Source: Pseudacidobacterium ailaaui (GTDB lineage Bacteria > Acidobacteriota > Terriglobia > Terriglobales > Acidobacteriaceae). Taken from it: a stretch of 64,000 nucleotides of DNA. The stretch is from NCBI RefSeq assembly GCF_000688455.1, contig NZ_JIAL01000001.1:3503001-3567000 (forward strand), read 5' to 3'. The translations under genes were made by a program, and so were the position numbers. Below are positions 41,985 through 58,505 of the stretch, in pieces. Every line of letters begins with the position of its first letter. The first letter of the stretch is position 1. Under the pieces are notes generated by a model. It saw nothing but the letters and a program-made list of their open reading frames with translations, did not search any database and was not told where the DNA came from.

Positions 41985-43271
41985 TCATTCTTTGCTCATC
42001 GAAACGGACTCCATCTTTTCCTGCAAGCTGGACAACAACGTTTCCTCCATCAGCGCAGCAACTTCATCACAAATCTCTGTACCTGGACGAATAAGAGATT
42101 TCTTTGCCTGACACGATTTCCTGATATCGGGAGAATGCAATAGATATCGCATTTCCTCAATCAGTTTCCCGGTATTTCTGGCCCCACGATGCACCAGACC
42201 ACATCCCAACCGTTCCATACGTTTTCCATTGTCGAGCTGGTCTGTCCATGTGGGAAGAACAAGTTGCGGAATGCCCGCCTGCAAAGCCAGCGCAATGGTG
42301 CCGATTCCGCCATGATGCACCACCGCCTTTGCGCGGGGCAACAGGAGCGGCAATGACGTATAGGCTTCCGGCCATACCGTTTCAGGTAAGGGTGGCAGCT
42401 GTTCTACAAACCGCGTCAGGAAAACCGCCCGCATCTTCAATGCTTGGCAAATTTCCAATGCGGATGCGAAGAAAGCCCGCGGGTCCTGTGTTTCCGTTCC
42501 GGGATTAAATACAACCGGAGGATCGCCTGTCTCCAGAAACCTTAGCAACCCATCGCTTAACCCTTGGTTTTTGTTTGCATCATACATGGGAAACCCAGTG
42601 CAAACTACATTGCGTGGCCAGTCTTCGCAAGCCGGAGAAAACCAGCCGTAAAACAAAGCAACGATCTTTTGAGGCGAATACCACCAATTGCTGAGGACCC
42701 TGGACGGCTTCTCCAGTTTCATGTCCTTACATGTCTGCCCCAGCAGTCTTTGACATACCGGATCGAGTACCAGACTTTCCGCACAGCGAAATACCACCTT
42801 TCGTAAAGGAAAAGGCATGGCGGAAAACCACTGCATAGATTGAAAAAGGGGTGGCTGCTTTAAAGAATAGAGATGAGCAGGAACTAAAACAGTCGATAAA
42901 TAGGGTGTGCCATATCGTTCGTGCAATAAGCGCGCCATTGCATAGAAAAAAGGCGGAGCGACCAGAATACTCTGATTGTCCAAATGGTGCGCAGCAAGAG
43001 CACACACTTCTTTGACTTTTTTTGCTAGGAACTCACCATAACTTCTTACTTTCGCATAGTAGTTAATTCCACTCGTTTGTTTAAGGAATTGCTCTTTTTC
43101 TCCTTCATCTAAAAAACTGAGGACCTGAAAGCCACACTCACGGGCCATCATGGCATAGTTTGAAGTAGTAATGAAGAGCACATCATGACCTCGCCTCATC
43201 CACGCACGCCCGACACCCAGATGAGGGTGGATTTCTCCGTCTGACCCGGCAGCAAAAATGATCGCTTTCAT
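41985..43271 (-). CDS. RhlB-like GT1 glycosyltransferase
   Basis: The 428-aa GT-B enzyme transfers an activated sugar to a lipid-like acceptor. It strongly recalls Pseudomonas RhlB (rhamnosyltransferase 1). Shared features are MKAIIFAAGSDGEIHPHLGVGRAWMRRGHDV at the N-terminus, HERYGTPYLSTVLVP, WWYSPQKIVALFYGWFSPACEDWP, VVCTGFPMYD and the donor-site region VVHHGGIGTIALALQAGIPQLVLPTWTDQLDNGKRM. The similarity judgement is from memory, not an alignment. It is the last gene of the cluster, 21 bp after the ABC-2 permease. Sugar and acceptor are inferred (a deoxyhexose on a hydroxyacyl or acyl-glycine lipid). Confidence 0.85.
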   Translation of the reverse strand: MKAIIFAAGSDGEIHPHLGVGRAWMRRGHDVLFITTSNYAMMARECGFQVLSFLDEGEKEQFLKQTSGINYYAKVRSYGEFLAKKVKEVCALAAHHLDNQSILVAPPFFYAMARLLHERYGTPYLSTVLVPAHLYSLKQPPLFQSMQWFSAMPFPLRKVVFRCAESLVLDPVCQRLLGQTCKDMKLEKPSRVLSNWWYSPQKIVALFYGWFSPACEDWPRNVVCTGFPMYDANKNQGLSDGLLRFLETGDPPVVFNPGTETQDPRAFFASALEICQALKMRAVFLTRFVEQLPPLPETVWPEAYTSLPLLLPRAKAVVHHGGIGTIALALQAGIPQLVLPTWTDQLDNGKRMERLGCGLVHRGARNTGKLIEEMRYLLHSPDIRKSCQAKKSLIRPGTEICDEVAALMEETLLSSLQEKMESVSMSKE

Positions 43272-43292
43272 AAAGAGACTGAAGATGGCCTT

Positions 43293-44075
43293 CTAAATTT
43301 CCAATTTAGAAAAAAACCAGGCACCCAACACCAGAAAGACTGCCCCCAGGATCGTTAACAGTCCCATGTCCAGAAAATAATTGAAGTGCCAAGATCCGAT
43401 AAGTGTTCCTCTCAGCCCATCAACTCCGTATGAAAGCGGATTTAGCAAGGTGATTACAGTAAGCACCTTAGGTTGATGGCTGAGGGGATAGAGTGCGCCT
43501 GACAGAAAGACCATCGGCATGACCATAAAATTGCCGATGACATTAAAGCTCTGCACGTCCTTGACTGCAGAACCAATCATCGTTCCAAGAGCAGCAAAAG
43601 AAAGCGAGATCATTCCCACAAAACCAAAAGCGGGAAGCATATTAGACCAGTGCTGCGGGCGAAAGCCAGCAATCATACAAAGGATAAGGATCAAAACACC
43701 TTGAAATAGACCAATGGTCGTTCCTCCCAGAGTGCGGCCTATCATTATAAAAAGTCGAGGCACGGGAGATACTAGTGCGGCCTTTAAAACTCCGAACTGA
43801 CGGTCCCATAACATGGCTACTCCGGAAAAGATAGCGCTCAGCAGGACCGTCATCCCAATCATTCCCGGCGCCATAAATTGCAGGTAACTTCCCTGCCCCG
43901 CTTGCTCAAACACATAGTTAAATCCAAAGCCCAGTGCCAGCAAGTAGAACGCAGGTTGTGCCAGTGAGCCAATAATCTGCACTCGTGAGCGAAAATAGCG
44001 TTTCAGCTCGCGAAGCCATAAGACATAAATTGCATTCATCTGTAATTCGTTCTCCACTCCGTCGCTACCCATCAC
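43293..44075 (-). CDS. ABC-2 type transporter permease (export)
   Basis: The ~250-260-aa permease has six hydrophobic helices and the ABC-2 signatures LWLRELKRYFRSRVQIIGSLAQPAFYLLALGFGF and NVIGNFMVMPMVFLSGALYPLS. Such permeases export polysaccharides, lipids or drugs with a separate ATPase. No ATP-binding gene is present in the cluster or elsewhere in the window. GTG 44075 overlaps the upstream stop (GTGA); ATG 44039 (MNAIYVLWLREL) gives the more typical N-terminus. It probably exports the cluster's glycolipid. Confidence 0.88.
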   Translation of the reverse strand: MMGSDGVENELQMNAIYVLWLRELKRYFRSRVQIIGSLAQPAFYLLALGFGFNYVFEQAGQGSYLQFMAPGMIGMTVLLSAIFSGVAMLWDRQFGVLKAALVSPVPRLFIMIGRTLGGTTIGLFQGVLILILCMIAGFRPQHWSNMLPAFGFVGMISLSFAALGTMIGSAVKDVQSFNVIGNFMVMPMVFLSGALYPLSHQPKVLTVITLLNPLSYGVDGLRGTLIGSWHFNYFLDMGLLTILGAVFLVLGAWFFSKLEI

Positions 44076-45367
44076 ACGACGGCTGCGCTAAGCGCGATGC
44101 CGGGTGTTCTATCACTTTCATGATGGATCTGCTTTGTCAGAATCTCTGAAAACATGGCCTTCAACACCTCTGCCTGGCTTCGGTCCAGACATTCGAGGTC
44201 GCCAGCGTAATAAAAGCGCAACTTGCCTTGCAAGGTATAGGCAACCAGGCCCAGCAATCGGAAGTTAAAGGAATGTACATACAGGCGGAGGTCTTTTAAA
44301 CGGAACGGGGACGCCTCATTCTGCAGATCAATGCTTCCCAGATTCGATAAAGCGAAGCGGTTCCAGCTTCCGTTTACTTTCAGCATGTCTCCAACGCGCA
44401 CCATGGTCTGGATACGTTCCCGTGTTACAGGACGCAGAAGCTCATTAAAGTAGTACCGTTTCGGGATATCAATCATTTCCTTCTCGATCTGCCGGCGTAT
44501 CTCATCATGGACAACACGCGCCCTCGTCCAAAAATCTTGTTGTGCATGTTCGCCAGTATGTAATTTCAGACTTCCGCCACCAAAGAAGAGCATGTCGCTT
44601 TTCAATCTGGACATGCGGCCTCGTCGCACATCCATTGGGCTTTCAATCCATGCTGGTAGTTTTTTTCTTCCCAGCACAGCCAGTAGAGCGCGGTCCAGTG
44701 CTACAAATAAGGCCGCATGAATCGAAGTCCCTTCAGCTCTGCACCGTAGTTTGAGCGCCTCTGTCTGTGGGCTGTCAAGGCTCCATTCCAGGTAATATTC
44801 GTTGTTCAATGCCTGATGGCTTGAGGCTGGAAGCATCTGTAATAGAAGATTTAATAAGTGGGCCTTCAGCTTTTCCTTCCAGGGATGAGCGGGTGTGTAG
44901 TCTCCTATCAGGTCCTGCGCTGTCACCGCAGGATAGGGGACCATCTCTTCTCTGCTCGAGAGGAGCCGCAATGTCTCCCGGACAATCGTAAGCATACTCA
45001 TTCCATCGCAGATGCGGTGTGAGGATGTAAACAACAGATGATTGTCTGTATTGGACTGTAACCACACTACTCGCAACTGCGGTTGCCCGTAAGGAAAAGG
45101 AGTCATTAATTCAGCCTGACGCTCCCGTTCCAGGTCATGATCTCTAAGATACGGAATGATCCTCAGCGGAATCTCTGCTTCGCATTCTTCTTCGTAGTAG
45201 AGTTTCCCTCCCTTTTCGATCATGACCATTCGCAGAGCAGGATGCTTCCGCTGTACTCTCTGAATGGAAGAACGGAGTTGTTCTTCAGAGAAATGGCCTT
45301 CGAGAGTGACGATGTAGACGATATTGCCATCAATCATGTGTTCGATGGCTGAGAGCTTCCGCCTCAT
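44072..45367 (-). CDS. Free-standing condensation-domain-like acyltransferase (third copy)
   Basis: This protein belongs to the CoA-dependent acyltransferase fold shared by NRPS condensation domains and Pap acyltransferases. The active-site motif reads SSHRICDGMS: the first His of HHxxxDG is Ser, but the catalytic second His and the DG remain. Other shared parts are FSEEQLRSSIQRVQRKHPALR near the N-terminus, RVVWLQSNTDNHLLF, and late GSWNRFALSNLGSIDL. ATG 45367 has GGAGG five bases upstream and overlaps the GT2 gene by 38 bp. It is ~431 aa, with no carrier domain attached. It probably acylates or condenses a glycolipid intermediate; donor and acceptor are unknown. Confidence 0.82.
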   Translation of the reverse strand: MRRKLSAIEHMIDGNIVYIVTLEGHFSEEQLRSSIQRVQRKHPALRMVMIEKGGKLYYEEECEAEIPLRIIPYLRDHDLERERQAELMTPFPYGQPQLRVVWLQSNTDNHLLFTSSHRICDGMSMLTIVRETLRLLSSREEMVPYPAVTAQDLIGDYTPAHPWKEKLKAHLLNLLLQMLPASSHQALNNEYYLEWSLDSPQTEALKLRCRAEGTSIHAALFVALDRALLAVLGRKKLPAWIESPMDVRRGRMSRLKSDMLFFGGGSLKLHTGEHAQQDFWTRARVVHDEIRRQIEKEMIDIPKRYYFNELLRPVTRERIQTMVRVGDMLKVNGSWNRFALSNLGSIDLQNEASPFRLKDLRLYVHSFNFRLLGLVAYTLQGKLRFYYAGDLECLDRSQAEVLKAMFSEILTKQIHHESDRTPGIALSAAVV

Positions 45368-46340
45368 TGAATCCTCCCGCAATGTTCACCGTAGGTCCGC
45401 TCTTTAAGACAACCTTTCTTCGCTGAGCCTTACAAAAAGCCGCCACTGCTGGATGCCGTTCTTCGAATGTGCCCAAACTCCCTAGCAGGCCATCCACGTA
45501 TCCAACAAGTATGGCTACAGTTTTTCTTAATTTCTGCGGCTCATATTGAAGCACACGCAGAATCTGAAGATAGGCAAGAAAGGCGCTTACCCAGTGCAGT
45601 CCCCATTGTTTCCGGTGCAGCCGCAAACAGTGCACAGCATTTCGGGCGCCGTAGTAACGCCGCCAAGCAGAATGGTTCGTCGTGTAACGCTTGCCATGAC
45701 GCTCAATGTTTCCCGTGGTCTGCCGAAGCGTGACCGATGCGTTGACATATACCGGAATGCCCTGCTCTGCAGCCCGCAGACAATATTCGATATCTACATA
45801 TTCAATAAAATAGTCTTCCCGGAAAGGCCCTAGCTTCCGATAGGCCGAAGCAGAAATTGCGGAGCCCGAGGAAATGATGCACAAAGAAGGAAACAGCCCT
45901 TCTTCTCGGTCATCGATGCGGACCCTGTGAGGAAGAGGCCTGGCCGGCTGGAAGATGGGCATACATCGTTGCAAATTGATTTCATAAATCTTGGGACCAA
46001 GCAGAAACTCGTCATCCCCAAGTGCATTGCAGGCCTGCATCATTTTGTCAAAAAAAGAGCTCTCAATTTCCGAATCCTGGTCGAGAAGGAAAACCACATC
46101 GCATCCTTGCTGCAGAAGGACTTCCATACCTCGGTTATAGGCTCCTGCCAGTCCCCCGCGGTTCTGGTTGTAAATGAGGGGAAGACCCCTTTTCTGCAAG
46201 GCAAGATGCAGTTGTGTATCTACATAAGGGGAATTGTCCACAACAACAAGGTTCGTGCAATCAGCAGAGGCTCTTTCAAGGTTGAGCAAAAACTTCTGCG
46301 TTGGTTCGTACAGCACAAAGATCAGACCAGCTCGATTCAT
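45330..46340 (-). CDS. RhlC-like GT2 glycosyltransferase (rhamnosyltransferase type)
   Basis: The 336-aa GT-A enzyme recalls RhlC and WbbL-like rhamnosyltransferases. It has VVVDNSPYVDTQLHLAL, NRGGLAGAYNRGMEVL and the metal/nucleotide motif LLDQDSE. LLGPKIYE, IISSGSAISASAYRKLGPFREDYFIEYVDIEYCLRA and NHSAWRRYYGARNAV follow. It would add a second deoxyhexose to a glycolipid. It starts in an ATGA overlap with the preceding acyltransferase and ends overlapping the next one by 38 bp. No dTDP-rhamnose synthesis genes are in the window, so the sugar supply must come from elsewhere. Confidence 0.87.
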   Translation of the reverse strand: MNRAGLIFVLYEPTQKFLLNLERASADCTNLVVVDNSPYVDTQLHLALQKRGLPLIYNQNRGGLAGAYNRGMEVLLQQGCDVVFLLDQDSEIESSFFDKMMQACNALGDDEFLLGPKIYEINLQRCMPIFQPARPLPHRVRIDDREEGLFPSLCIISSGSAISASAYRKLGPFREDYFIEYVDIEYCLRAAEQGIPVYVNASVTLRQTTGNIERHGKRYTTNHSAWRRYYGARNAVHCLRLHRKQWGLHWVSAFLAYLQILRVLQYEPQKLRKTVAILVGYVDGLLGSLGTFEERHPAVAAFCKAQRRKVVLKSGPTVNIAGGFNEAEALSHRTHD

Positions 46341-47728
46341 GTTGTTTGCTCTGCGACAGAGTTTCCGGCCAAGCTTGACTCTTTTTTGCCCGGTAAGAGC
46401 ACACAGGTATTCAGAATTTCCATTGAACGCCGTTGAATTGCCAGTGCATGAGCATGAGGCAAGGAAAATTCATCGGAGATGATGGCGAATTCCATCCTGC
46501 CTGCAAAAGTTGACAGAACCACAGTATTTGCGGGAGTGGGCGACACCATGACCAGAGGACTGTAGACCGCTTCCAGTCGGAAGCCCTGGTATTGCTGCTG
46601 CAATTCAATCTTTCCCAGGTTTGATATCGTGAGGTGCCGCACTGCAGGAGCGTTATCTGTGTCAAAGACAAACTGGCCATACTGATCATGCAGCCCTTCC
46701 AATGCAACCAGATACGAGTAGACCTGTCGCCCCAGGCGTGTGACTGCGCGATCGATTTCATTTTTCAGCCTTCGCGCACGTGACCAGTAATGGTCTATGG
46801 AGATTTGCTCTGTCGATGACAGGCCTTTCACACTCAATTCAATACCGGGCACAATTCCAAACAGAGCATCTGATCTTAAACGTGGAAGATATCGGCGCGC
46901 GTTCACCATTGCATAGGTTTTACGCAGACCCTCAGCTCCTCGCACATCACGGAAGGCCTGCATCAGTGCAAGACCTGCCGCGGAAAGTACCGTCACACCT
47001 TCTGCTTTCGCACGTTCTGTAAGCCGTTTCGTGCTCGCCTCATCCAGCAACCAGCGATGAAAGTACATCTGCTCAGCAGAAACGCGTGGTGCAGGTTTTC
47101 GTCCTGGCTGCAGGGACCGAAAGAACATGACAAGCCTGAGAATTCTTCTCTTCCTCCGGACTTCCCGGTGGAACCTTGGATTGTGCAATAACTCTTGCGG
47201 TACAAGGTCTTCGATTGCTCCTAGAGCGTCATAAGATTCTGTTGCCACATGTGCAGGATCATCACATGCAGCCAGCAGGTCACGAAGCAAGGTAATGCCA
47301 GACTGGCCGTCACAAATACAGTGGTGCGCAACCAGCAGCAACTCATGGGCAAAACTCGCACGCAGCCAAACTACGCGAAGCAATGGATCCTGGGCCGCAT
47401 GAAAAGGTCTGCACCATTCGCGGCGGACTTCTCTCTGCCAATCGTCATCGCTCTGGCGTTCTACAATTCGCAATGGTATGGGTTGTGGACGCTTCAGCAA
47501 CACAAAGGACCGTCCCTGCACAACGCAACGGAGTAGCGGGTGTTTGTTCTGAATACTGGCCAGTGCGCGCACGATCTGGCCCTCTTCCAGCTTGCCTGAT
47601 ATCTGAATGGTAAAAAGGCTGCTGAATGGAGTTTGGCCTTCGCGGAACATCGTTCGTTCCGGCAGCAAGAGGGGCCTGGACCGTTTCCCGATCTCCAGAA
47701 TCGGCGCCTGTCTCATCTGGAACATCAT
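46337..47728 (-). CDS. Free-standing condensation-domain-like acyltransferase (second copy)
   Basis: The 463-aa protein keeps the full condensation motif HHCICDGQS (both His). It shares ISGKLEEGQIVRALASIQNKHPLLRCVV and PIPLRIVERQSDDDWQREVRREWCRPF with the preceding paralogue, so the two arose by duplication. VRHLTISNLGKIELQQQYQGFRLEAVYSP corresponds to the late solvent-channel region of Pap-type enzymes. It starts in an ATGA overlap with the upstream copy. It would transfer an acyl group to a hydroxyl or amine of the cluster product; which one cannot be read. Confidence 0.83.
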   Translation of the reverse strand: MMFQMRQAPILEIGKRSRPLLLPERTMFREGQTPFSSLFTIQISGKLEEGQIVRALASIQNKHPLLRCVVQGRSFVLLKRPQPIPLRIVERQSDDDWQREVRREWCRPFHAAQDPLLRVVWLRASFAHELLLVAHHCICDGQSGITLLRDLLAACDDPAHVATESYDALGAIEDLVPQELLHNPRFHREVRRKRRILRLVMFFRSLQPGRKPAPRVSAEQMYFHRWLLDEASTKRLTERAKAEGVTVLSAAGLALMQAFRDVRGAEGLRKTYAMVNARRYLPRLRSDALFGIVPGIELSVKGLSSTEQISIDHYWSRARRLKNEIDRAVTRLGRQVYSYLVALEGLHDQYGQFVFDTDNAPAVRHLTISNLGKIELQQQYQGFRLEAVYSPLVMVSPTPANTVVLSTFAGRMEFAIISDEFSLPHAHALAIQRRSMEILNTCVLLPGKKESSLAGNSVAEQTT

Positions 47729-49065
47729 GAGGCCTCCGCAGGTGCGGCCAAAGTAGCGCCTGCAGCCAATGCCCCTGTTGCTGGCCGTTCTTCAACACAA
47801 CGATGGAGTTCCGTCATGATCTCGTTTCTGATCTCCATTGCTTCGGCATGGGGAAGAGAAGATTCATCCGAAGCAAGAGAAAAATGAAAGCGGCCTGCAA
47901 AGCTGTACATCGCAATCAGGTGGGCAGGTGTGGGTAACATCATGGCAGAAATGTCGCAGATGTCCAGCAGGCGAAACTTTGCATATTGCTGCGGCAAGTC
48001 AATTTTGCCTACGTAGCTTAAGGAGACTTTGCTGCCTGCACGTTTGGATTGAGCATAAGCAGCCATCCGGTCATACACATCATGGAACTGCTCCATTCCT
48101 AGAAAGAGCGGAAAGACACTGGAGTTGAGCTTTTCCATCCGAGCAGCCATATCAGCTTTAAGAGAACGTGCGAGTCCCCAGAAGTTTTCCTTTGTCAGAG
48201 CAATCCTGTGCAGCTTTCGCAGGGACAGCTCGATCGTAGGTGCAATCGCAAACAGGCTGTCGCTACGCAAACCGGGCAGGTAACGCCGGAAATCCACAGG
48301 AGCTTCATACTTCCTGATGCGTTCCGGCCCGCATACCTTTGCAAAGGCTTTCATACAGGCAATACTCAGCGCAGCAAAAACGCTGGTCCCTTCCTTCTTG
48401 CAATTTGCAATCAGTTTTTGCGACACATCTTCATCCATGGTCCAAAGACAGCGATAGATCCTGCCATATGTCCACGCAGGCTTCGTCCTCGTCAACCGCA
48501 GCATGAACTTGGCAGCAGCTACCTTGACTCGAATCCGCCTTTGTAGTCGACGGTCTGCCCAAACATCAGCGGGAAAGACCTCCTCTAAGGCATTCATGGA
48601 TGTTCTGACACCAATGTCTGCATGGGGCTGATCACAAAGCAGAAGAATCTCACACAGCAAGGTCACTAAGGATCGGCCATCGCAAAGTGCATGACTGCAC
48701 ACCAGCAATAACTCACTCTGTTCTTTCCCCTGCACCCAGACCAATCGTGCCAAAGGCCCCTTGCTTCCTTCGAAAGGCTGCAGTGACTCCTGCATGGCCA
48801 CATCCAGCCAATCGTCTTCATGGCGGCGTTCTATCATCCGTATGGGAATCGGTACAGGATTTTCCTGCATGACAAACCAGGGACGTTTGTCTTCTTCGAC
48901 CACCAGACAACGCAGAATTGCGTGCTTTTCCTGCACTCGCCTCAATGCATGGCGTATTTGGGTTTCTGTAAGAAGACCTGAGATTCGGGCCGTAATCATC
49001 ACATTTACATGAAAGCCCGCACCAAAATAGAGAGCGCGTTCAAACATCGTCAATGGACGTTTCAC
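47725..49065 (-). CDS. Free-standing condensation-domain-like acyltransferase (first copy)
   Basis: The ~446-aa protein shows CSHALCDGRS, with the first His replaced by Ser and the catalytic HxxxDG intact. It also has TARISGLLTETQIRHALRRVQEKHAILRCLVVEE and PIPIRMIERRHEDDWLDVAMQESLQPFEG, as in its paralogue, and late KVSLSYVGKIDLPQQYAKFRLLDI. GTG 49065 was chosen because it overlaps the glycosyltransferase stop (GTGA) and has GGAGG seven bases upstream; in-frame residues before it fall inside that gene. No carrier domain is attached. Substrates are unknown. Confidence 0.83.
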   Translation of the reverse strand: MKRPLTMFERALYFGAGFHVNVMITARISGLLTETQIRHALRRVQEKHAILRCLVVEEDKRPWFVMQENPVPIPIRMIERRHEDDWLDVAMQESLQPFEGSKGPLARLVWVQGKEQSELLLVCSHALCDGRSLVTLLCEILLLCDQPHADIGVRTSMNALEEVFPADVWADRRLQRRIRVKVAAAKFMLRLTRTKPAWTYGRIYRCLWTMDEDVSQKLIANCKKEGTSVFAALSIACMKAFAKVCGPERIRKYEAPVDFRRYLPGLRSDSLFAIAPTIELSLRKLHRIALTKENFWGLARSLKADMAARMEKLNSSVFPLFLGMEQFHDVYDRMAAYAQSKRAGSKVSLSYVGKIDLPQQYAKFRLLDICDISAMMLPTPAHLIAMYSFAGRFHFSLASDESSLPHAEAMEIRNEIMTELHRCVEERPATGALAAGATLAAPAEAS

Positions 49066-50384
49066 GCCATCGCCTCCACGGCCTGAACCGCAGCAGCATC
49101 CCTTTGTGCAGTCGGCAGCAGTTGCCATCTACACAACCAGCGGATTGCTTCGCCAACGCCATCTTCTTCGCGTACGGCGTTTCCCAGATCTTTGGCCTTG
49201 TGCCACATCGCTGGCTGCTGAGTAGCAATCAACGCGGACGAAAGAGCGTCAGGAGTGAGCGTCTTGCGTTCCAGTGCAGGAGGAGCTACTCCCAGGCTGT
49301 GAAGCCTGGCCGCCCAGAAAGGCTGGTCTCCAAAAAATGGAACAATCACTGAGGGAATGCCTGCGCGAACAGCCGCCGCCGTCGTCCCGGCTCCGCCATG
49401 ATGAACTGCAGCAGACATCAGTGGAAACAACTGGTCATGAGGCGCATGGCGTAGAAAAAAAATCCGCTGATTGTAGAGGCCATCTTCACCTTCAAGACCG
49501 CCCCAACCTGTGGCAATCACAGCACGCTGACCGCTCTTCTCTACTGCCCTAAGAATGGTCTGCGTAAATTCCTTTGCCTGGTTGCTCACCATGCTCCCAA
49601 AGCCGATATAGACAGGCTTTGGTCCCGCAGCAAGAAAATCTTTCAATGCTTCAGAAGGACTCCATTGTTCCTGATCGAGGAACCAATATCCCGTCACCTG
49701 TGAGTTCACTGTCCAGTCTGATGGCCGCGGAAGCACTCGTTGGCTAAAGCCATTGATGACTTTCGAATGGTGCAAATCGCGAAAATATGGACCGTACCAC
49801 GGATAAGGAGACAGACCAAGCTGGGGCCGTACAATGTCGTTGATGGCCGGACGCATCACACTCCAGAAGAGCTTAAACATCACACAATGCGCCCCCAGGC
49901 TCACCATACGCGGGAGCCTGCGCTGGGAATGGATCAACATGACAGGCGGTAATATCCCCGACAGCGTGGCCGGTTGCAGGCGCGCAATCGCATAAGGTAT
50001 TTCACACGCTTCCGATAATGCCTTGGCCAAAAGGATGCTGTTGCTGACGCCAATCAGCAATCGAGCACCCTCGGCTGCTGCCAGACCTTCCTTCACCCAG
50101 TGCGCGGCCCAGCCAGCATAACGTTCCCGGAAGATGCGCACCATCGCACGGATATGAAGACCCTGATCGGCAATCGAACGGTCGGTCTCCAGCATTGCCT
50201 GGAAGTCAGCCGTCATCGGAAAGAATTCTAGGCCCGCATTGAGGACCATCCCGGCAAAATTCGTGCTTGTGGCAATGCGCACCGGATACCCAGCGCGACG
50301 AATTCCCTTTCCCAAGGCCACACAGGGACGCACATCGCCCTGTGTTCCGATTGTGAAAATAACTACAGGCTTAAGCTCAGGCAT
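49062..50384 (-). CDS. GT1-family glycosyltransferase (sterol/glycopeptidolipid type)
   Basis: The ~440-aa GT-B enzyme begins MPELKPVVIFTIGTQGDVRPCVALGKGIRRAGYPVRIATSTNFAGMV, the TxGTxGDVxPxxALG signature of sterol and mycobacterial glycopeptidolipid glycosyltransferases. The donor-site part reads AAVHHGGAGTTAAAVRAGIPSVIVPFFGDQPFWAARLHSLG. ATG 50384 overlaps the NRPS stop by eight bases (ATGCCTGA), so it is co-translated with the NRPS; longer starts fall inside the NRPS gene. It probably adds the first sugar to the NRPS-derived lipid, which is inferred. Confidence 0.87.
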   Translation of the reverse strand: MPELKPVVIFTIGTQGDVRPCVALGKGIRRAGYPVRIATSTNFAGMVLNAGLEFFPMTADFQAMLETDRSIADQGLHIRAMVRIFRERYAGWAAHWVKEGLAAAEGARLLIGVSNSILLAKALSEACEIPYAIARLQPATLSGILPPVMLIHSQRRLPRMVSLGAHCVMFKLFWSVMRPAINDIVRPQLGLSPYPWYGPYFRDLHHSKVINGFSQRVLPRPSDWTVNSQVTGYWFLDQEQWSPSEALKDFLAAGPKPVYIGFGSMVSNQAKEFTQTILRAVEKSGQRAVIATGWGGLEGEDGLYNQRIFFLRHAPHDQLFPLMSAAVHHGGAGTTAAAVRAGIPSVIVPFFGDQPFWAARLHSLGVAPPALERKTLTPDALSSALIATQQPAMWHKAKDLGNAVREEDGVGEAIRWLCRWQLLPTAQRDAAAVQAVEAMA

Positions 50385-53300
50385 AGGCTGCTGTACTTTC
50401 TCCTGTTTCTTCCAACAGCGCAGCGGGAACCTGTGCAAGACGGTGTACCCCGGGACCACAAAGCTGCTGCTGCAAGACCGCACCAATCATCGCCGCTGGT
50501 CCAGGATCCAGGACCTCTTCATGATGGCAGTGAAGAGAATGTACTTCGATCTTTCCTTTAACAAACGGTCTCCACGCCGATGGACTGCGGTGAATCACGC
50601 TTACATTGCCGGTCGTTTTGGTCGCATGGAAATAAAGCAGATCAGTTGATACACGGGCAGGCCTGTAATTACGCGCCATCTTCAGGTTATTCAACATGAC
50701 AGCGGTCAGATGATTCAGAAACTCTGGTTTGTTCTTCATCATCGCCTGGACGATCTTCATCATTCCCTGATGATTGGCCGGTACTAAGTGTGCGTTTTCA
50801 GGATGTAGTAGAAACTCTCCCAGCTCCTGGAGTGTCCTCTGTGGTTTTGCTTCTTTAAACTGAATGTCAAGAAAGCTGAGTGCGGCGCGCACTTCTTCTG
50901 TCTCGGTTAGCGCAGGACTGAAACCTTCTGGATGAAAAAGAAAAGTATCAATCATCCCGAGCATCTCGACCTCGAGCCTCTGCTCTTCCATCTGCACGGC
51001 CAAAGCATGTGCTATGAGCCCACCCATCGAGCGCCCGAGCAGGCGATACGGACCGCGAGGCTGTATACGCCGGATTTGTTGCAGATAATCCGCAGCAGTT
51101 TCCTCGATGGTAGCGGGCAAAGGGCCACCCAGAAGTCCTCGCGATTGCAGACCGTAAACCGGAATGCCGTCATCAAGGTGACGCAGTAAGTTTGAAAAAC
51201 CGATGCTGACGCCAGCCATTGGGTGAATGCAGAAGAGTGCTCGATGCCTGGCAGGGTTTCCTTTCCTTAAGGTCAGTACTTCTCCAAACAGGTCACTGTC
51301 CTCATGGCGCAAGCGCTCAATCAAAGCGGCAAGGCTGGCAATGGTGGGCGCCTCAAACAGACTTCCCATGGGCAGTTCCATCTCAAAGTATGCAGGAAAA
51401 TGGGCGATAAACTCGGCGGCGGAAAGCGAATCGCCACCAAGGTCAAAAAAGTTATCGTGCAGCCCCACTCGCTCAAGATTCAGAATCTCCCGCCATATCC
51501 GCGCTAGCTTCTTTTCTGTTTGCGTTACAGGTTCAACATGAATGCCAGAACTTTCGCGCTTAGGGACCGGCAATGCTTTACGGTCCAGCTTCCCATTAGG
51601 GGTCAGGGGCATGGCCTTCAGTATCGTAAAGCTGTCTGGCACCATATGGTTTGGCAACCGGCTGGCAAGGAACCAGCGAATCGAACGCAGATCCACGCTT
51701 GCTCCGTGGACCGGCACCAGATAGGCATTCAGGGAAATGGACCCGTCGTCGTGGCGCTGCGCGGTGACAGCAGCCTCGGCAATCGTCTCATGCAGCAGAA
51801 AGACATTCTCTATCTCACCCAGCTCTACCCTATGGCCATGAATCTTCACCTGGTTGTCTGCTCGGCCAATGAACTCTAAGAAACCTTGTTCATTCCAGCG
51901 CACCAAGTCTCCTGTGCGATACATGCGGGAGCCGCAAGGGGAGAATGGATCCGGCAGAAACCGCAGCTCGGTTAATTCGGGCCTATTTCGGTAACCTTTG
52001 GCCACTCCCTCCCCACCGATATACAACTCACCAATTGCACCTACGGGAACAAGCTGCTGGGCCTGGTCCAGAACATACAACTGCGTGTTGAGAATAGGAC
52101 GGCCGATGGGCGGAGGATCGTCCCCAACCTTTTCAATTTGATAAGCAGTGGACCAGATCGTTGTTTCCGTTGGACCATAAAACTGGGTCACACACGCTGC
52201 CATACTTTTAAGGCGCGCAGCCAATTCCGCAGTCAGAGCCTCTCCGCCCACCAGCACATGCACACCATCCAGCTTCGTTGCGGTACTGGCCATAAGAATT
52301 CGCCATACGGAGGGAGTGGCCTGTACATGGGTCACGCCACTGGACTCGATCAACCTTGCCAGCAGCGGTGGATTGCGAAGCGCTTCACCATCTGCGATCA
52401 CAACGCAGGCGCCAATGGTAAGAGGCAGATACAACTCAAGCCCGGCAATGTCAAAAATAATCGTAGTCAGCGCCAGAAATCGGTCGTCTGCCTTTGGCGC
52501 CAACTGTTCCCGCATACCTTCCAGAAAATTCGCCAGGTTTCTATGGGTTACTTCCACGCCCTTCGGTCTCCCGGTAGAGCCAGAGGTGTAAAGCACATAT
52601 ACGACTCCATCGGGAGAGCTGTAATCCGGCCCGGAGTCCTGGCCCTGTACGCCTGCTTGCAGCGAATCAGGATCCAGCCTTATAAAATCTCCGGAAAATC
52701 GCTCCTGCATCGTAGCTTCAGCAATCAAAGCAGCAGGAGAGGCGTCCTCAATCACCAGAGATGCCCGTTCCTCAGGACCATCCAGGTCCAATGGAAGATA
52801 AGCAGCTCCAGCGCGCATAATACCCAGCAGTGTTATCAACAGCTGCTCACTGCGCGGCAGGGCCACTGCTACGATGTCTCCCGGCTTCACTCCGGCGGCC
52901 ATCAGGCCCAGTGCACACCTTACGCTGCGTTCGTGCAGTTGACGGTAGCTCAATTGCCGACCGCCATGCTCAGCAGCAGGAGCATCTGGCGTTAGCCTTG
53001 CCCATTGGGCCACCTGTGCCGGAACACTGGCATAAGACCATGACTTTCTCGTGCTGTTCCATGAAACCATCAGAGTGCGGCGCTCTTCTTCTCCGAGAAT
53101 GTCCAACTGCCGCAAAGGTATCGCGGGATGTTCCAGCACCTGCTCCGTCAGTCTGGTCCATCTTCGCTTGTGTTCATCCAACTCTGCCTGGCTGTACAAC
53201 AATGGATTTGCATCAAAATCAAAACGCACATCCGCGCCGGTGCCGCGGTCATAGACGAATACTGTCAGGTCTTCCGCGCCGCTATTCGACAAATTATGTG

Positions 53301-54405
53301 TGATGGTCTGCGCTCCATCGAAGCTCAGCCGATAATCAAAGGGTTCAATGTTTACGCCAAGCCACGCAATGTTCTGGTTGTGCCCAACCAGACCAAGATC
53401 ACGGCGCAAATCTTCATACCTGTATTGCTGGTGCCGCAGAGCCTGCCGCATGACTCTCGATGCCTGCGTGAGCAGGTCGCCAAAGGTCATCTCAGCATTA
53501 AAATGGAGCCGCAGCGGTACAATATTGGCAGCCACCGCGATGGACGACCGCAGTGCAGGTAAAAGCCGTCCAGAAACTGGCATCCGGAAAACCAGATCCT
53601 CTGCACCCGTAAAGCGGTGGTAGTATGCCGCTACCAGACTGGTCCAGACCTGGGGCAGGCTGGCACCCCCCAGTTTTCCTATACCGGCCAGACTCCGCAC
53701 TACTTCTGCAGAAAGATACCCTGTGCTGCGGAGCAGACTACCACTCAACTGATGATGGCCGGATTTGCGCGATAGAGTGACAGGATCAGGCATTCCGTCC
53801 AATTGCCGTAGCCAGTATTCCCGGTCCCGCTGAAAACGCTCCGAGGCGCGATACCCAGCCTCAGCCTCTAGCATTGCCTGTACTGTGCAAAATTGGTTCG
53901 GAGCAGGTTCATGTCCCCTGGCATATGCTGTATAGACTTCGGCCAGCCTTCGGGCCACCAGGCCTCCACCATAACCGTCATTCACAATATGGTGAGCACG
54001 GTGATACCAGAAATAGCGGCCTTCTCCTGCTTTCAGCAAGGCAGATACCCAGAGCGGATCTCTTGCCAGATCCAGCGGGCGGCACAACTCCTCCATCATC
54101 CACTCATGGATAGCAGCCTGCGGGTCCGGCCTAAGACTCATGTCGAGATAAGGAAATTCGCCTTCATACGCGGCCCGCACAATCTGCCTGGGCTTGCCGT
54201 CTTCCTCCACAATGCAAACCCGAAGCTGTTCAGCCTCACTGGCAACACGATGCAGGGCTTTTCTGAAGATCACCGGATCGATGGCACCACAGATTTCGAT
54301 TGCCTCGGCAATGTTCATCAGGGCGCCTAGAGCAATCTTTTGACTGAACCATAACCCCCGCTGTGCAACGGTCAACGGAAAAGAACTTTGGCTGCACTCT
54401 TTCAT
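50377..54405 (-). CDS. Single-module non-ribosomal peptide synthetase (C-A-T-TE), glycine-type A domain
   Basis: The 1342-aa enzyme has a condensation domain (~1-440; HHIVNDG at 138-144), adenylation (~455-945; LYTSGSTGRPKG, FYGPTETTIWS, NGKLDRKALP), carrier (Ser993 in LGGDSL) and thioesterase (~1055-1342; GRSMGG with Ser1126). By position the ten-residue specificity code is DILQLGFIWK, one change from the classic glycine code. The C domain resembles EntF/DhbF-type domains that take an acyl or aryl group from a separate carrier. ATG 54405 has GGAGG five bases upstream. The likely product is an N-acyl-glycine released or transferred by the TE. No MbtH gene or acyl-loading gene is adjacent. Confidence 0.92.
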   Translation of the reverse strand: MKECSQSSFPLTVAQRGLWFSQKIALGALMNIAEAIEICGAIDPVIFRKALHRVASEAEQLRVCIVEEDGKPRQIVRAAYEGEFPYLDMSLRPDPQAAIHEWMMEELCRPLDLARDPLWVSALLKAGEGRYFWYHRAHHIVNDGYGGGLVARRLAEVYTAYARGHEPAPNQFCTVQAMLEAEAGYRASERFQRDREYWLRQLDGMPDPVTLSRKSGHHQLSGSLLRSTGYLSAEVVRSLAGIGKLGGASLPQVWTSLVAAYYHRFTGAEDLVFRMPVSGRLLPALRSSIAVAANIVPLRLHFNAEMTFGDLLTQASRVMRQALRHQQYRYEDLRRDLGLVGHNQNIAWLGVNIEPFDYRLSFDGAQTITHNLSNSGAEDLTVFVYDRGTGADVRFDFDANPLLYSQAELDEHKRRWTRLTEQVLEHPAIPLRQLDILGEEERRTLMVSWNSTRKSWSYASVPAQVAQWARLTPDAPAAEHGGRQLSYRQLHERSVRCALGLMAAGVKPGDIVAVALPRSEQLLITLLGIMRAGAAYLPLDLDGPEERASLVIEDASPAALIAEATMQERFSGDFIRLDPDSLQAGVQGQDSGPDYSSPDGVVYVLYTSGSTGRPKGVEVTHRNLANFLEGMREQLAPKADDRFLALTTIIFDIAGLELYLPLTIGACVVIADGEALRNPPLLARLIESSGVTHVQATPSVWRILMASTATKLDGVHVLVGGEALTAELAARLKSMAACVTQFYGPTETTIWSTAYQIEKVGDDPPPIGRPILNTQLYVLDQAQQLVPVGAIGELYIGGEGVAKGYRNRPELTELRFLPDPFSPCGSRMYRTGDLVRWNEQGFLEFIGRADNQVKIHGHRVELGEIENVFLLHETIAEAAVTAQRHDDGSISLNAYLVPVHGASVDLRSIRWFLASRLPNHMVPDSFTILKAMPLTPNGKLDRKALPVPKRESSGIHVEPVTQTEKKLARIWREILNLERVGLHDNFFDLGGDSLSAAEFIAHFPAYFEMELPMGSLFEAPTIASLAALIERLRHEDSDLFGEVLTLRKGNPARHRALFCIHPMAGVSIGFSNLLRHLDDGIPVYGLQSRGLLGGPLPATIEETAADYLQQIRRIQPRGPYRLLGRSMGGLIAHALAVQMEEQRLEVEMLGMIDTFLFHPEGFSPALTETEEVRAALSFLDIQFKEAKPQRTLQELGEFLLHPENAHLVPANHQGMMKIVQAMMKNKPEFLNHLTAVMLNNLKMARNYRPARVSTDLLYFHATKTTGNVSVIHRSPSAWRPFVKGKIEVHSLHCHHEEVLDPGPAAMIGAVLQQQLCGPGVHRLAQVPAALLEETGESTAAYA

Positions 54406-55010: not shown

Positions 55011-58000
55011 TCAGAAAACGAATCGGGCACCGAGTTGCAGCACTCGGGGTGAATTGATCTGGCTGGTGGAAGTCCCAAAAGACTGGGAAGTGGGGCTGAC
55101 ATTCGGGCTGTTGAACTGAGGGTGGTTCATCGCATTATATGCCTCCACCCGAAGCTGCAGCATCGTCCGCTCGGTAAAGCTGAAGTTTTTTAACACAGAG
55201 CAGTCCAAATTATTGGAGGGGTCCGAACGAAGAGCATAGAGGGGGAATGTCCGGTAATTGTATTGGTTTGGCTGTATCTGGTTCCCGTTGGAGTCTTTCG
55301 TTCTTGTATCAAATACGGTGGTATTAAAGGCATGCTGATAATCATGTGGCGTATTGTGAAAGTCATGCCAGTTGCCATTATAGATAACATTTCCCCAGCT
55401 CAGGGCCGTGCCTGATTCCCACATGTAGATGCCGGCAACCTGCCATCCTCCAATGACTGCATCCGTCAGATGGCCCGCATCTCTGCCAATGGCCTTACCC
55501 CGTCCAAAGGGAAGATCATATGTTACGGTCACGGCCAGATGCTGCGGAAAATCCGACGCATTGGTTCCATACCAAAGCGGTCCTCCAGCATTCAGGGGAC
55601 TCGCCGCAGCCAGCAACCGGGAATATTCATAATTGATGTTGGCCGCAAGCCCTGAGGAAAGCCGCTTCGTGATGCGCGCCACCAGCATGTTCATATTGGA
55701 TGAAGCAGCAGGAACCAGTTGTTCATTTACGCTGGAGTACTCCGGAAAACGGCTAAAAAGACTGCTGAGCGTAATGGTTTTTCCTGTACCAATGCCGCTA
55801 CCCTGGATAAGTCCATAAAAAGGATTGGCCACGGCAGAACCATAAGTTTTGGTGACAACCGGATCGTAATAGGCCGAGCGGCTGAGGAGACCGACCGGAA
55901 AATAATCTAATGGTGCTGTATAGGACATATGCACTTGATGATTGCCAATGTAGCCGACCTGAACCATCGTGTTGTGTCCAAGATCGTGCTGAATATCAAA
56001 GCTCCAGCGGATACTATAAGCCGCCTTCGGCCTTGGATTGGTGAAAGTAATGGATTGTCCGAGATAGGTGTTGATTCCTTGGCTGCTACCAAACGGTTGG
56101 CGCAAAGGATTGGAAGAAGCAGGAAATGGATCCGATAGGGTGGCTGCGGGGGTCAGCATATTGTTATTACTGGCAATGAGTGTATTTGCAATGCTGTATC
56201 CGTATGCCTGTGGCGTGTAATAGTCGTTGAATGGGTTGTAATACAGCCCCATACCACCTCGAAAGACGGTCTTGCCATGCAGCGCATCCGGAGCATAGGC
56301 CAATCCGATGCGGGGACTCACATAAAGCGATTGTGTCGAGTAGTTGCTGCGGTTGCCAGAAGATGCATAGAGCAAGCCACCCGTCGGAGAAAAGCTTGCT
56401 GGCGCGGCCGGGTATTTTGAGGCTTCCGCGGCAAAGGCCGCCTCTGCCGCAGCCGTAGCGCTGTTCACAGCATTTGGATCAAAGCCAATCACTGCCTTGT
56501 TATGACTTTCAGTAATGGGAGTTTCATGCTCCAGCCGCAGACCCAAGTCCAGTGAAAGCTCGTGTGTCAGCTTCCAGTGGTCCTGCAAAAACCCTGCAAA
56601 GTACCAGTTGTTGTATAGGAAGGAGTCGTTAATGTCATACTCTCCACTCATAGGCAGCCCTAACAGGAATTCAGCCAGAGAGTCGCCAAATGGCGCTGCC
56701 GCCTTGTTTGTGCCTGCCGTCACCCAGTTCCCCGCAGCATTTGTGAAAGAAAAGGTGCCGGCAGAATAGCCCGGATTCTGGGTGCCAAGTTTGTTCAACC
56801 GGAAATCCATTCCCGTCTTCAGCGTGTGCCGGTCCCAGTCTTTGGTCAGATTTGTAAAAAGCTGATAGGTAACAAATTTTTCGATGCTTCCTGGCTGTGT
56901 GCTGAGGCTGGGAATGCTTGCTCCATCGCTGAATGAAATGCGTGGCATCGCAGGGAACCTTGAGTTTGAAGCCATATAAGAGGGATAGCCTAGAGCAGAA
57001 GCATTCAATCCCTGACTGGGGATTGCGCTCTGCTGGAGGGTCCGGGAGAAGCCCAGCCGCGTGTCCAGAAAAAGTTTGGGAGTAAAAACATAGACATTGT
57101 CCAGCATCCCTCCCCAGATGTTGGTAATGCTGGTCGATCCCTCGGCAATGTTCGGAAAGACTCCCGTCTGCGTCTGATTGTTATTGCTGCGATGGAGCTC
57201 GAAAGTGAGCTTGTCCGCCTGGCTTACGTTGTAGTCCAGTCGGCCCTCGCTGGAACGGTAATCGAAAATGGTGGGAGTATTGGCAAGAAAGTTGTTCTCC
57301 CCATCCGGCTTTGTTGTAGGGCCGCTATAGTTAGGCAGCGGGATATACTTCACATATGCTTGGGCGACAGGGTTAATGGTTAGTCCCGCATTGGCAAAAA
57401 CATTTCCCGGAATCGGCTGCCGACTCACATTCCCGCCCGACATGGTGGCATTGTACGGGTTGTAAAGTTGATAGCTGCTGTTCACTCCCAGTAAGGCCGA
57501 AAAATCCCCGGAACGCTCAGCATCAGTGGGTACCGATGCGATGGTTGTACCGGGCGCTTTTGTACTGAATCCCTCGTAAGCATAGAAAAAGAACAACCGG
57601 TTACGCCCATTAAAAACCTTGGGAATCCATACAGGACCGCCCACCGCTGCTCCAAACTGATTTTGATGTGTCGATTGGGTGGTTGTACTAAAGAATGGCT
57701 GCGCCGCCAGCGCCGATGTTTCATAGAACTCCAGCAAAGACCCGTGAAACTGGTTTGTTCCGCCTTTCGTGGTGATGTCTACCGTCCCTCCGGACGTATC
57801 TCCCAGAGATGCGTCCGAGGAGAAAACATCCACACGGACCTGATCTACCGCATCCAGCATCGGACTGAAAGCAGAGACACGTCCGCTGTCTTCCATATTG
57901 GGAGTACCGTTCAATTCAATCTCATTACTTTGAGAGTTTCCGCCGCCCAGCGAAAAATCACTGGCGCCTGAATTGTCAAAGGGGCGGACCTGAGACGTCG

Positions 58001-58505
58001 CATGCTTGAGCTTGGGAACCACAGCATATTCATCACGCGCAAAACCCAGCGCCGAGCGGCCGTTGCTAGGCAGGTCCTCGATTTCCTTTGTCGTCAGGAC
58101 CTGTCCGGCATCAGCGGAGGCCGTATCCAACAACGGTGATTGCGCGGCAACCGTGACTGTCTGCGACGTGCTGCCTACTGTCAAGGCAACATTCACTGTG
58201 ACCTTGGCCCCCGTGTCCAGTTGCAGACCTACCCGTTCATACTTTTCAAAGCCGGATGCCACTACTGTGAGGTTGTAAGGACCTGGCGCAAGAAAGGGAA
58301 CATAGTAGTCGCCTGAAGTACCAGAGCGCACCACGGTAGCGGCCGCCGTGGCTGTGTTGGTAATGGTAATGACAGCATCCGGTACCACGGCGCCTGAAGG
58401 ATCGCTTACCCTCCCGGTTAATGTGGCCCGGAACTCCTGTGCGGCGGCAACGCTAACAAACATCGCTGCCGCTAAAACTCCAAAAAGAAATTTTATGAAG
58501 CGCAT
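55011..58505 (-). CDS. Oar-like TonB-dependent receptor with carboxypeptidase-regulatory-like domain
   Basis: The 1164-aa outer-membrane protein has a signal peptide (MRFIKFLFGVLAAAMFVSVAAAQE) and a carboxypeptidase-regulatory-like Ig domain at about 25-115 (TLTGRVSDPSGAVVPDAVITITNT). A plug follows (about 125-250, ending GGTVDITTKGGTNQFHG), then a large barrel ending RVLQLGARFVF with the terminal Phe required for outer-membrane assembly. This architecture is expanded in Acidobacteriota and is linked to uptake of glycans or large organics. GGGGAGG precedes the ATG. It is divergent from the symporter-aldolase pair, which may act on the same nutrient. The substrate is unknown. Confidence 0.93.
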   Translation of the reverse strand: MRFIKFLFGVLAAAMFVSVAAAQEFRATLTGRVSDPSGAVVPDAVITITNTATAAATVVRSGTSGDYYVPFLAPGPYNLTVVASGFEKYERVGLQLDTGAKVTVNVALTVGSTSQTVTVAAQSPLLDTASADAGQVLTTKEIEDLPSNGRSALGFARDEYAVVPKLKHATSQVRPFDNSGASDFSLGGGNSQSNEIELNGTPNMEDSGRVSAFSPMLDAVDQVRVDVFSSDASLGDTSGGTVDITTKGGTNQFHGSLLEFYETSALAAQPFFSTTTQSTHQNQFGAAVGGPVWIPKVFNGRNRLFFFYAYEGFSTKAPGTTIASVPTDAERSGDFSALLGVNSSYQLYNPYNATMSGGNVSRQPIPGNVFANAGLTINPVAQAYVKYIPLPNYSGPTTKPDGENNFLANTPTIFDYRSSEGRLDYNVSQADKLTFELHRSNNNQTQTGVFPNIAEGSTSITNIWGGMLDNVYVFTPKLFLDTRLGFSRTLQQSAIPSQGLNASALGYPSYMASNSRFPAMPRISFSDGASIPSLSTQPGSIEKFVTYQLFTNLTKDWDRHTLKTGMDFRLNKLGTQNPGYSAGTFSFTNAAGNWVTAGTNKAAAPFGDSLAEFLLGLPMSGEYDINDSFLYNNWYFAGFLQDHWKLTHELSLDLGLRLEHETPITESHNKAVIGFDPNAVNSATAAAEAAFAAEASKYPAAPASFSPTGGLLYASSGNRSNYSTQSLYVSPRIGLAYAPDALHGKTVFRGGMGLYYNPFNDYYTPQAYGYSIANTLIASNNNMLTPAATLSDPFPASSNPLRQPFGSSQGINTYLGQSITFTNPRPKAAYSIRWSFDIQHDLGHNTMVQVGYIGNHQVHMSYTAPLDYFPVGLLSRSAYYDPVVTKTYGSAVANPFYGLIQGSGIGTGKTITLSSLFSRFPEYSSVNEQLVPAASSNMNMLVARITKRLSSGLAANINYEYSRLLAAASPLNAGGPLWYGTNASDFPQHLAVTVTYDLPFGRGKAIGRDAGHLTDAVIGGWQVAGIYMWESGTALSWGNVIYNGNWHDFHNTPHDYQHAFNTTVFDTRTKDSNGNQIQPNQYNYRTFPLYALRSDPSNNLDCSVLKNFSFTERTMLQLRVEAYNAMNHPQFNSPNVSPTSQSFGTSTSQINSPRVLQLGARFVF

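Follow-up and report, generated by a model that had tools for sequence, protein, structure and literature searches.

Why would a soil bacterium string together, in one tight run of genes, a one-module nonribosomal peptide synthetase (NRPS), three glycosyltransferases (GTs), three stand-alone condensation-like proteins and an export permease? The arrangement occurs in a 64,000-nucleotide stretch of Pseudacidobacterium ailaaui DNA (contig NZ_JIAL01000001.1, positions 3,503,001 to 3,567,000; hereafter the window), where eight open minus-strand open reading frames (ORFs) run from position 54405 down to 41985 in the order NRPS, GT1a, AT1, AT2, GT2, AT3, ABC-2 permease and GT1b. The likely product of this operon is a glycosylated N-acyl-glycine lipid that belongs with the glycine-glucolipid of Alcanivorax and carries further decoration; we read it best as an N-(3-hydroxyacyl)glycine that is oligoglycosylated, bears several acyl groups and would serve as an envelope lipid or surfactant. 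The NRPS and GT1 core is already known; what is probably new is a larger version with additional sugar- and acyl-adding genes. Such a version puts soil bacteria among the probable carriers of a little-studied biosurfactant pathway and offers candidate enzymes for glycosylating and acylating acyl-glycine lipids, with possible new glycolipid surfactants among the products.

Which amino acid does the NRPS select? Its ten adenylation (A) domain pocket positions, in what we take to be GrsA numbering, read DILQLGFIWK in an alignment of 56 NRPSs, and the positions were checked on an alignment to 5u89, a DhbF fragment that reads DILQLG-L-IW. The DhbF domain of 5u89 presumably takes glycine, and DILQLGLIWK, found in 25 of the 56 homologues, is a signature that we take to denote glycine. 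The window's code thus supports a glycine-type A domain, in keeping with the glycine core of the original prediction. Other codes among the 56 are DILWLGLVLK (five), DVLQLALVYK (two) and DIFQLTLVWK (two). Changed codes are seen in the NRPS-GT pairs at L177, L178, L180, L181, L182, L185, L186, L190 and L191, and these sequences suggest that the amino acid of such lipids varies. The second histidine, aspartate and glycine of the condensation (C) domain, the serine of the peptidyl carrier protein (PCP) and the serine, aspartate and histidine of the thioesterase (TE) are kept in all 56 aligned rows, the window included, and the first C-domain histidine in 44.

How does this core compare with described systems? 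In 2013, genes that encode a single C-A-PCP-TE module and overlap a GT gene were reported from Xanthomonas albilineans and Alcanivorax borkumensis (PMC3849588, section 7). There, the short X. albilineans loci are XALc_0364/0365 and XALc_1145/1144, which overlap the GT gene by 4 and 8 bases and have starter-type C domains, with a glycine signature for XALc_0364; the proposed product joins an amino acid (glycine for XALc_0364), a beta-hydroxy acid and a glycosyl group. In A. borkumensis, the same source gives ABO_1784 as the NRPS, ABO_1783 as the GT and ABO_1782 as a phosphopantetheinyl transferase (PPTase). The A. borkumensis product is described as glucosyl-tetra(3-hydroxyacyl)-glycine (PMC10684412, relevant section); ABO_1783 and ABO_2215 are named as RhlB-like candidates in a section of PMC10710537 that calls the pathway not elucidated. 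As described in these sources, the operon shares with the A. borkumensis pair a one-module NRPS overlapping a GT gene, an RhlB-like GT and the link to a glycine-containing lipid, and with the X. albilineans loci the domain order, the short GT overlap and, in one, the glycine signature. It therefore has the traits of a short NRPS-GT pair (single C-A-PCP-TE module, overlapping GT gene, glycine-type signature), and on sequence its core is like the published pair in signature and in the order of both genes and domains. The contiguous PPTase of the Alcanivorax form is absent from the operon; we do not count it as defining because X. campestris and X. axonopodis, for which lost function was suggested, carry comparable genes and lack an ABO_1782-type PPTase (PMC3849588). 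The PapA-like proteins, GT2, second GT1 and permease of the operon go unmentioned for A. borkumensis in the sections of PMC3849588, PMC10710537 and PMC10684412 considered here, and section 7 of PMC3849588, which calls the function of the X. albilineans loci unknown, describes no acyltransferases or further GTs for them.

Do the eight genes form a unit? The original prediction held that they belong together and nearly all overlap by 4-38 bases, and both points stand. With the likeliest starts, judged from start contexts (NRPS 54405, GT1a 50384, AT1 GTG 49065, AT3 45367), successive overlaps are 8, 4, 4, 4, 38 and 4 bases, the first of these being that of GT1a with the 3' end of the NRPS gene, followed by a 21-base gap before GT1b; if AT1 begins at its first ATG (49128), the GT1a/AT1 overlap becomes 67 bases. 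The predicted gene kinds agree with the Pfam and NCBIfam labels (C-A-PCP-TE, GT1, three condensation-like proteins, GT2, ABC2 permease and GT1), several of which lie below curated cut-offs. A congener (G001, locus L035) carries all eight genes in the same order, all eight frames open, at 59-87% identity: NRPS 69%, GT1a 77%, AT1 63%, AT2 59%, GT2 73%, AT3 67%, permease 87% and GT1b 61%. When seven flanking window genes were used as queries, none (0/7) matched in the 35 kb around L035. Because the same eight genes keep the same order in different surroundings, they appear to travel as a unit, and the set, judged from these two genomes, is not a product of chance. The predicted features are collected in Table 1. 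The flanking genes are of other kinds, with a LacI regulator and sucCD on one side and an OMP_b-brl_4 outer-membrane protein on the other, and promoter and terminator scans of the region gave counts near those of shuffles (11 against 10.2 and 16 against 14.3, respectively).

Table 1. Predicted genes and domains of the operon, in window positions
Feature	Position	Strand	Predicted kind	Basis
NRPS	50377..54405	-	one-module NRPS, C-A-PCP-TE	Pfam
NRPS domains (approximate)	C 53071-54390; A 51589-53010; PCP 51319-51510; TE 50467-51240	-		Pfam
GT1a	49062..50384	-	RhlB/sterol-glucosyltransferase-like GT1, likely first sugar	Pfam/NCBIfam, neighbour NRPS
AT1	47725..49128, start perhaps 49065	-	stand-alone condensation-like protein, motif SHALCDG, likely acyltransferase	Pfam
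AT2	46337..47728	-	stand-alone condensation-like protein, motif HHCICDG, likely acyltransferase	Pfam, AF2/Foldseek
GT2	45330..46340	-	RhlC-like, rhamnosyltransferase-type	TIGR01556 below cut-off
AT3	44072..45367	-	stand-alone condensation-like protein, motif SHRICDG, likely acyltransferase	Pfam, AF2/Foldseek
Permease	43293..44075	-	ABC-2 type permease, DrrB-like	Pfam/NCBIfam
GT1b	41985..43271	-	second GT1, likely further sugar	Pfam/NCBIfam

Conserved co-occurrence across Acidobacteriota had been named as a supporting sign, but conservation lies mainly outside the phylum. An AT2 probe matched 27 of 120 relatives, only the congener full-length over the whole protein and the others in part, at E 4e-11 or weaker; in a phylum sample of 396 genomes, 13 matched at E <= 1e-12, the window's own included. 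A common acidobacterial system is ruled out by the single full-length AT2 relative among the 120 and the few in the phylum sample. In an Edaphobacter metagenome-assembled genome (MAG), G505, the NRPS (62% identity), GT1a (72%), AT1 (61-63%) and pieces of AT2 are spread across contig ends (L044, L065, L127). The acidobacterial genome G217 holds a decayed remnant (L129:10474-13779) with an NRPS fragment, a broken AT3, an ATPase gene and a permease gene, the permease match changing frame. The phylum-sample matches in G267, G354, G454 and G485 lie in ORFs of 445-496 amino acids that, by sequence, could be further stand-alone condensation-like proteins; no GT homologue over 50 bits lies near them (3-4 kb examined at each, 20 kb for G485).

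Where else, then, is the set found? An AT1/AT2 alignment profile search of genome contigs returned 10 loci. A five-gene form, NRPS-GT1a-AT1-GT2-AT3, is present in Dyella tabacisoli (L039), Dyella silvatica (L041) and Lysobacter chinensis (L042), and Lysobacter maris (L040) has AT1-GT2-AT3 at a contig end and the NRPS and GT1a on another contig. Two orders were sampled, with loci chosen for a strong GT1a match and with homologue thresholds of our own setting, so that weak homologues count as absent. In the Dyella order (that of G500, the genome of L039, presumed to be Xanthomonadales), GT1a matched 71 of 398 genomes at E <= 1e-55, and scores above 480 bits came from 41; 36 of the 41 make up the sample, apart from which are G500 itself and G1225, G1267, G1251 and G1219, which were left out. 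The NRPS adjoins GT1a in 35 of the 36 loci: 21 have the pair only, 9 the five-gene set, 3 the pair with GT2, and 2 the pair with GT2 and AT3. The remaining locus, L179, has GT1a, AT1, GT2 and AT3 without the NRPS, and two weaker GT1a matches outside the 36 (L204 and L205) gave no NRPS match. In the Moraxellaceae order (that of the Moraxellaceae MAG G506), 16 of 390 genomes match at 17 places, with the NRPS beside GT1 at 16 of them and homologues of AT, GT2, permease or GT1b over thresholds at none (0/17). The family of G570 has matches in 15 of 21 genomes; a five-genome sample and a class sample (1/369) yielded only the centre genome itself. A plasmid tblastn search with the NRPS gave matches in 3016 records, all below 60% identity, the best among the matches listed being 38.5%.

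How might the larger form have arisen? By gene content, the eight-gene form adds AT2, the permease and GT1b to the five-gene form, and AT2 is over threshold only in acidobacterial loci. In an NRPS tree built by a quick method from 56 rows and drawn from the midpoint, in which the composition of some rows is unusual, the three rows from Acidobacteria form one cluster (99). Their neighbours are five Dyella-order loci with the five-gene set (100 for the fork that holds all eight), and both lie inside a 40-row group made up of the Dyella order and Acidobacteria (100), with the forks between at 88-99. This nesting suggests a gain by Acidobacteria, and horizontal acquisition of the NRPS from the Dyella-order group is likely, not proven. 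That AT2 is a recent copy of AT1 was ruled out: AT2 falls outside all AT1 rows (fork 99/97) and is therefore old. We hold as tentative, at somewhat less than an even chance, the bolder proposal of a distinct envelope glycolipid family, tri-glycosylated, multiply acylated N-(3-hydroxyacyl)glycines, whose core grew stepwise from two to five to eight genes and moved from the Dyella/Lysobacter lineage to soil Acidobacteria with its own permease. Together the loci suggest a path by which a core of two genes was enlarged to decorated sets of five and eight in two phyla.

What would the decorated product be? From what can be read directly in the sequences (domain order, glycine-type code, catalytic residues, co-inheritance) we infer a pathway whose acyl donor, sugar identities, step order, acylation sites, export and surface role are all provisional. 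The C domain would join a (3-hydroxy)fatty acyl group to PCP-held glycine, and the TE would release N-(3-hydroxyacyl)glycine. GT1a would then set a first sugar on the free hydroxyl; among solved structures its closest relative is a sterol 3-beta-glucosyltransferase (E 6.7e-70), which fits a lipid acceptor and supports a lipid-type GT1 beside the NRPS. The RhlC-like GT2, probably with rhamnose, and GT1b would extend the glycan. RmlD scores over its cut-off in the genomes of both the window and the congener (RmlA-C lay outside the search), so dTDP-rhamnose is plausible. The three C-fold proteins would acylate hydroxyls of the sugars, the hydroxyacyl chain or both, giving a product with perhaps as many as three sugars and additional acyl groups, and the DrrB-like permease would export it with an ATPase encoded elsewhere.

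Are AT1, AT2 and AT3 indeed acyltransferases? Sequences and models make this likely. Their condensation-like Pfam scores are 42.8, 44.0 and 41.4 bits (cut-off 30.6), and their profiles match 8s6l best (E 3e-35 for AT1/AT2, 1.6e-13 for AT3), followed by NRPS C domains; the AT1/AT2 profile also matches PapA5 (1q9j), in support of the condensation-like proteins originally proposed. In AlphaFold2 (AF2) models, AT2 (predicted local distance difference test, pLDDT, 80.6) and AT3 (pLDDT only 66.8) have 8s6l as top Foldseek match (E 3.1e-25 and 2.0e-20). Profiles and models point to a common C/PapA fold, the AT3 model being of low confidence. HxxxDG is present in 38/38 AT rows, AT1 and AT3 of the window lacking the first histidine of HHxxxDG. 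The PapA5 NCBIfam model gives 26.7 bits for AT1 and 37.3 for AT2, far below its cut-off of 396. The proteins belong to the PapA/condensation-like superfamily and not to the PapA family proper.

Several observations weigh against the decorated-lipid reading, beginning with these proteins. The best match, 8s6l, is a dimycocerosyl transferase by one label and an AzeD dehydratase by another, and because of the latter title the acyltransferase role is not certain; PapA_C scores are 26.7 bits for AT2 and 16.3 for AT3, both below the cut-off of 30. The three proteins might instead act on NRPS-bound or released acylglycine, by hydroxy-acid polyester formation, dehydration or carboxyl esterification, and the product would then be a glycosylated oligo-hydroxyacyl glycine whose sugars carry few acyl groups or none. 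Both the AzeD title and the four esterified hydroxy acids of the A. borkumensis product (PMC10684412, relevant section) suit this alternative. We consider it rather unlikely: no AT homologue over thresholds lies beside the pair at any of the 17 Moraxellaceae-order loci, only an NRPS, a GT and a PPTase are named for A. borkumensis in the sections of PMC3849588 considered here, yet the tetramer is made, and AT1/AT2 match PapA5, with PapA_C as a weak match.

On the same side stand two Dyella-order five-gene loci, L181 and L185, with the code DVLQLALVYK, for which reason glycine is not universal. GT2 resembles the RhlC type, as had been claimed, at a score short of the model's cut-off: its Pfam score is 23.8 bits (cut-off 23.3), and the NCBIfam rhamnosyltransferase model TIGR01556 gives 158.4 bits, below its cut-off of 200.55. 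The drrB model likewise gives the permease 168.5 bits (cut-off 223.05). The core is linked to A. borkumensis through published descriptions; a later paper is said to have proved the A. borkumensis genes by deletion, and our literature search found no such paper.

How would the carrier domain be loaded, and the permease driven? At E <= 0.001, PF01648 matches a single protein in the genome, which reads like AcpS; Pfam finds no PPTase in the operon, and an Sfp-type enzyme too weak for PF01648 may have been missed in the genome. The operon thus poses the question of carrier-domain loading where only an AcpS-like enzyme is found. The Pfam scan also found no ABC ATPase among the operon genes. The permease has a paralogue (56% identity) whose gene directly adjoins that of a DrrA-type ATPase at 3574 kb in the genome, the congener has a permease/ATPase pair too, and the G217 ATPase, 75% identical to that at 3574 kb, lies between AT3 and permease. 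Because of this paralogue and the G217 arrangement, our guess is that the permease shares an ATPase in trans. Were the PCP not loadable and the permease without ATPase, the operon would be silent or non-functional in its host; the decayed G217 relative shows that such clusters get lost, and a loss of function is proposed in PMC3849588 for Xanthomonas species that lack the PPTase. Such a state is improbable, as none of the eight frames is interrupted here or in the congener (59-87% identity), the NRPS catalytic residues are kept, and a DrrA-type ATPase scores over its cut-off elsewhere in both genomes.

Could the product be soluble instead, a siderophore- or antibiotic-like acyl amino acid glycoside and not an envelope lipid or surfactant? 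The top NCBIfam models of the NRPS are the siderophore synthetases MxcG (myxochelin; 750.1 bits, cut-off 2300) and EntF (653 bits, cut-off 2400), both far below cut-off, and GT1a and GT1b match rifamycin- and macrolide-type GT models below cut-off (NCBIfam). A large outer-membrane beta-barrel gene (55011-58505; PF25183, 586.6 bits) lies on the operon's strand, 605 bases upstream of it, which would also suit a soluble product. We judge this very improbable, since Pfam and NCBIfam name no other siderophore-type gene in the operon, the A-domain code is glycine-type, the barrel gene is unmatched in the congener's 35 kb, and the core pair resembles that of a known glycolipid producer.

The operon also resembles parts of two other known kinds of system. 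In the rhamnolipid system an RhlB-like GT1 and an RhlC-like GT2 act on a hydroxyacyl lipid; the operon has an RhlB-like GT1 and a GT2 that resembles RhlC below its model's cut-off, whereas RhlA is absent by a Pfam scan of the operon genes (no genome-wide search was made), its lipid would be NRPS-made and glycine-ended, and it has an extra GT1 and the condensation-like proteins. Mycobacterial glycopeptidolipid and phenolic glycolipid/phthiocerol dimycocerosate (PDIM) systems combine an NRPS or polyketide synthase (PKS) core with GT1s, PapA-type acyltransferases and a DrrB-type permease; in contrast, the operon, by its ORFs and a Pfam scan, has no PKS and no second NRPS module, and its PapA5 model similarity is weak. 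No published description of the eight- or five-gene set was found in a search of open-licence papers. The claim that no such pathway had been described is thus only partly right: within the papers searched it fits the eight-gene form, but the NRPS and GT1 core was reported in 2013 (PMC3849588).

The compared loci carry further genes near the pair. In the Moraxellaceae-order form (L110-L126), a sulfotransferase-like gene, NRPS, GT1 and PPTase often occur together: a sulfotransferase-like family (four members scanned) lies near the pair at 15 of 17 loci and a second neighbour family, PPTase in the two members scanned, at 12 of 17, and the product is possibly a sulfated glycine-glycolipid. Just behind GT1a, three Dyella-order loci have a penicillin-amidase-type gene (L039:7015-9939, L041:7238-9880, L187:11663-13966; assigned by PF01804 in L039 and L187 and by clustering in L041), whose product could, on this assignment, act on the N-acylglycine by trimming its acyl group or exchanging it. 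At ten others (L193-L200, L202, L203) the neighbourhood of the pair includes another gene family; the single member scanned, that of L199, is Acyl_transf_3 (OafA-type), perhaps an alternative route to O-acylation.

AT-like proteins also occur in Niabella and in Moraxellaceae/gamma MAG loci. In Niabella aurantiaca (L043:831-11266), a PKS with a PPTase-type domain, a hydrolase, two GT1s and two AT-like proteins stand in a row, possibly a PKS-based glycolipid cluster with the same AT family. In the phylum sample, G458 has a full-length AT at 36% identity with no NRPS match within 20 kb; its locus (L128:8025-16233), with two major facilitator superfamily (MFS) transporters, the AT-like protein (PapA_C over cut-off), a GT2, a GT1 and a hydrolase, is possibly an NRPS-free relative.

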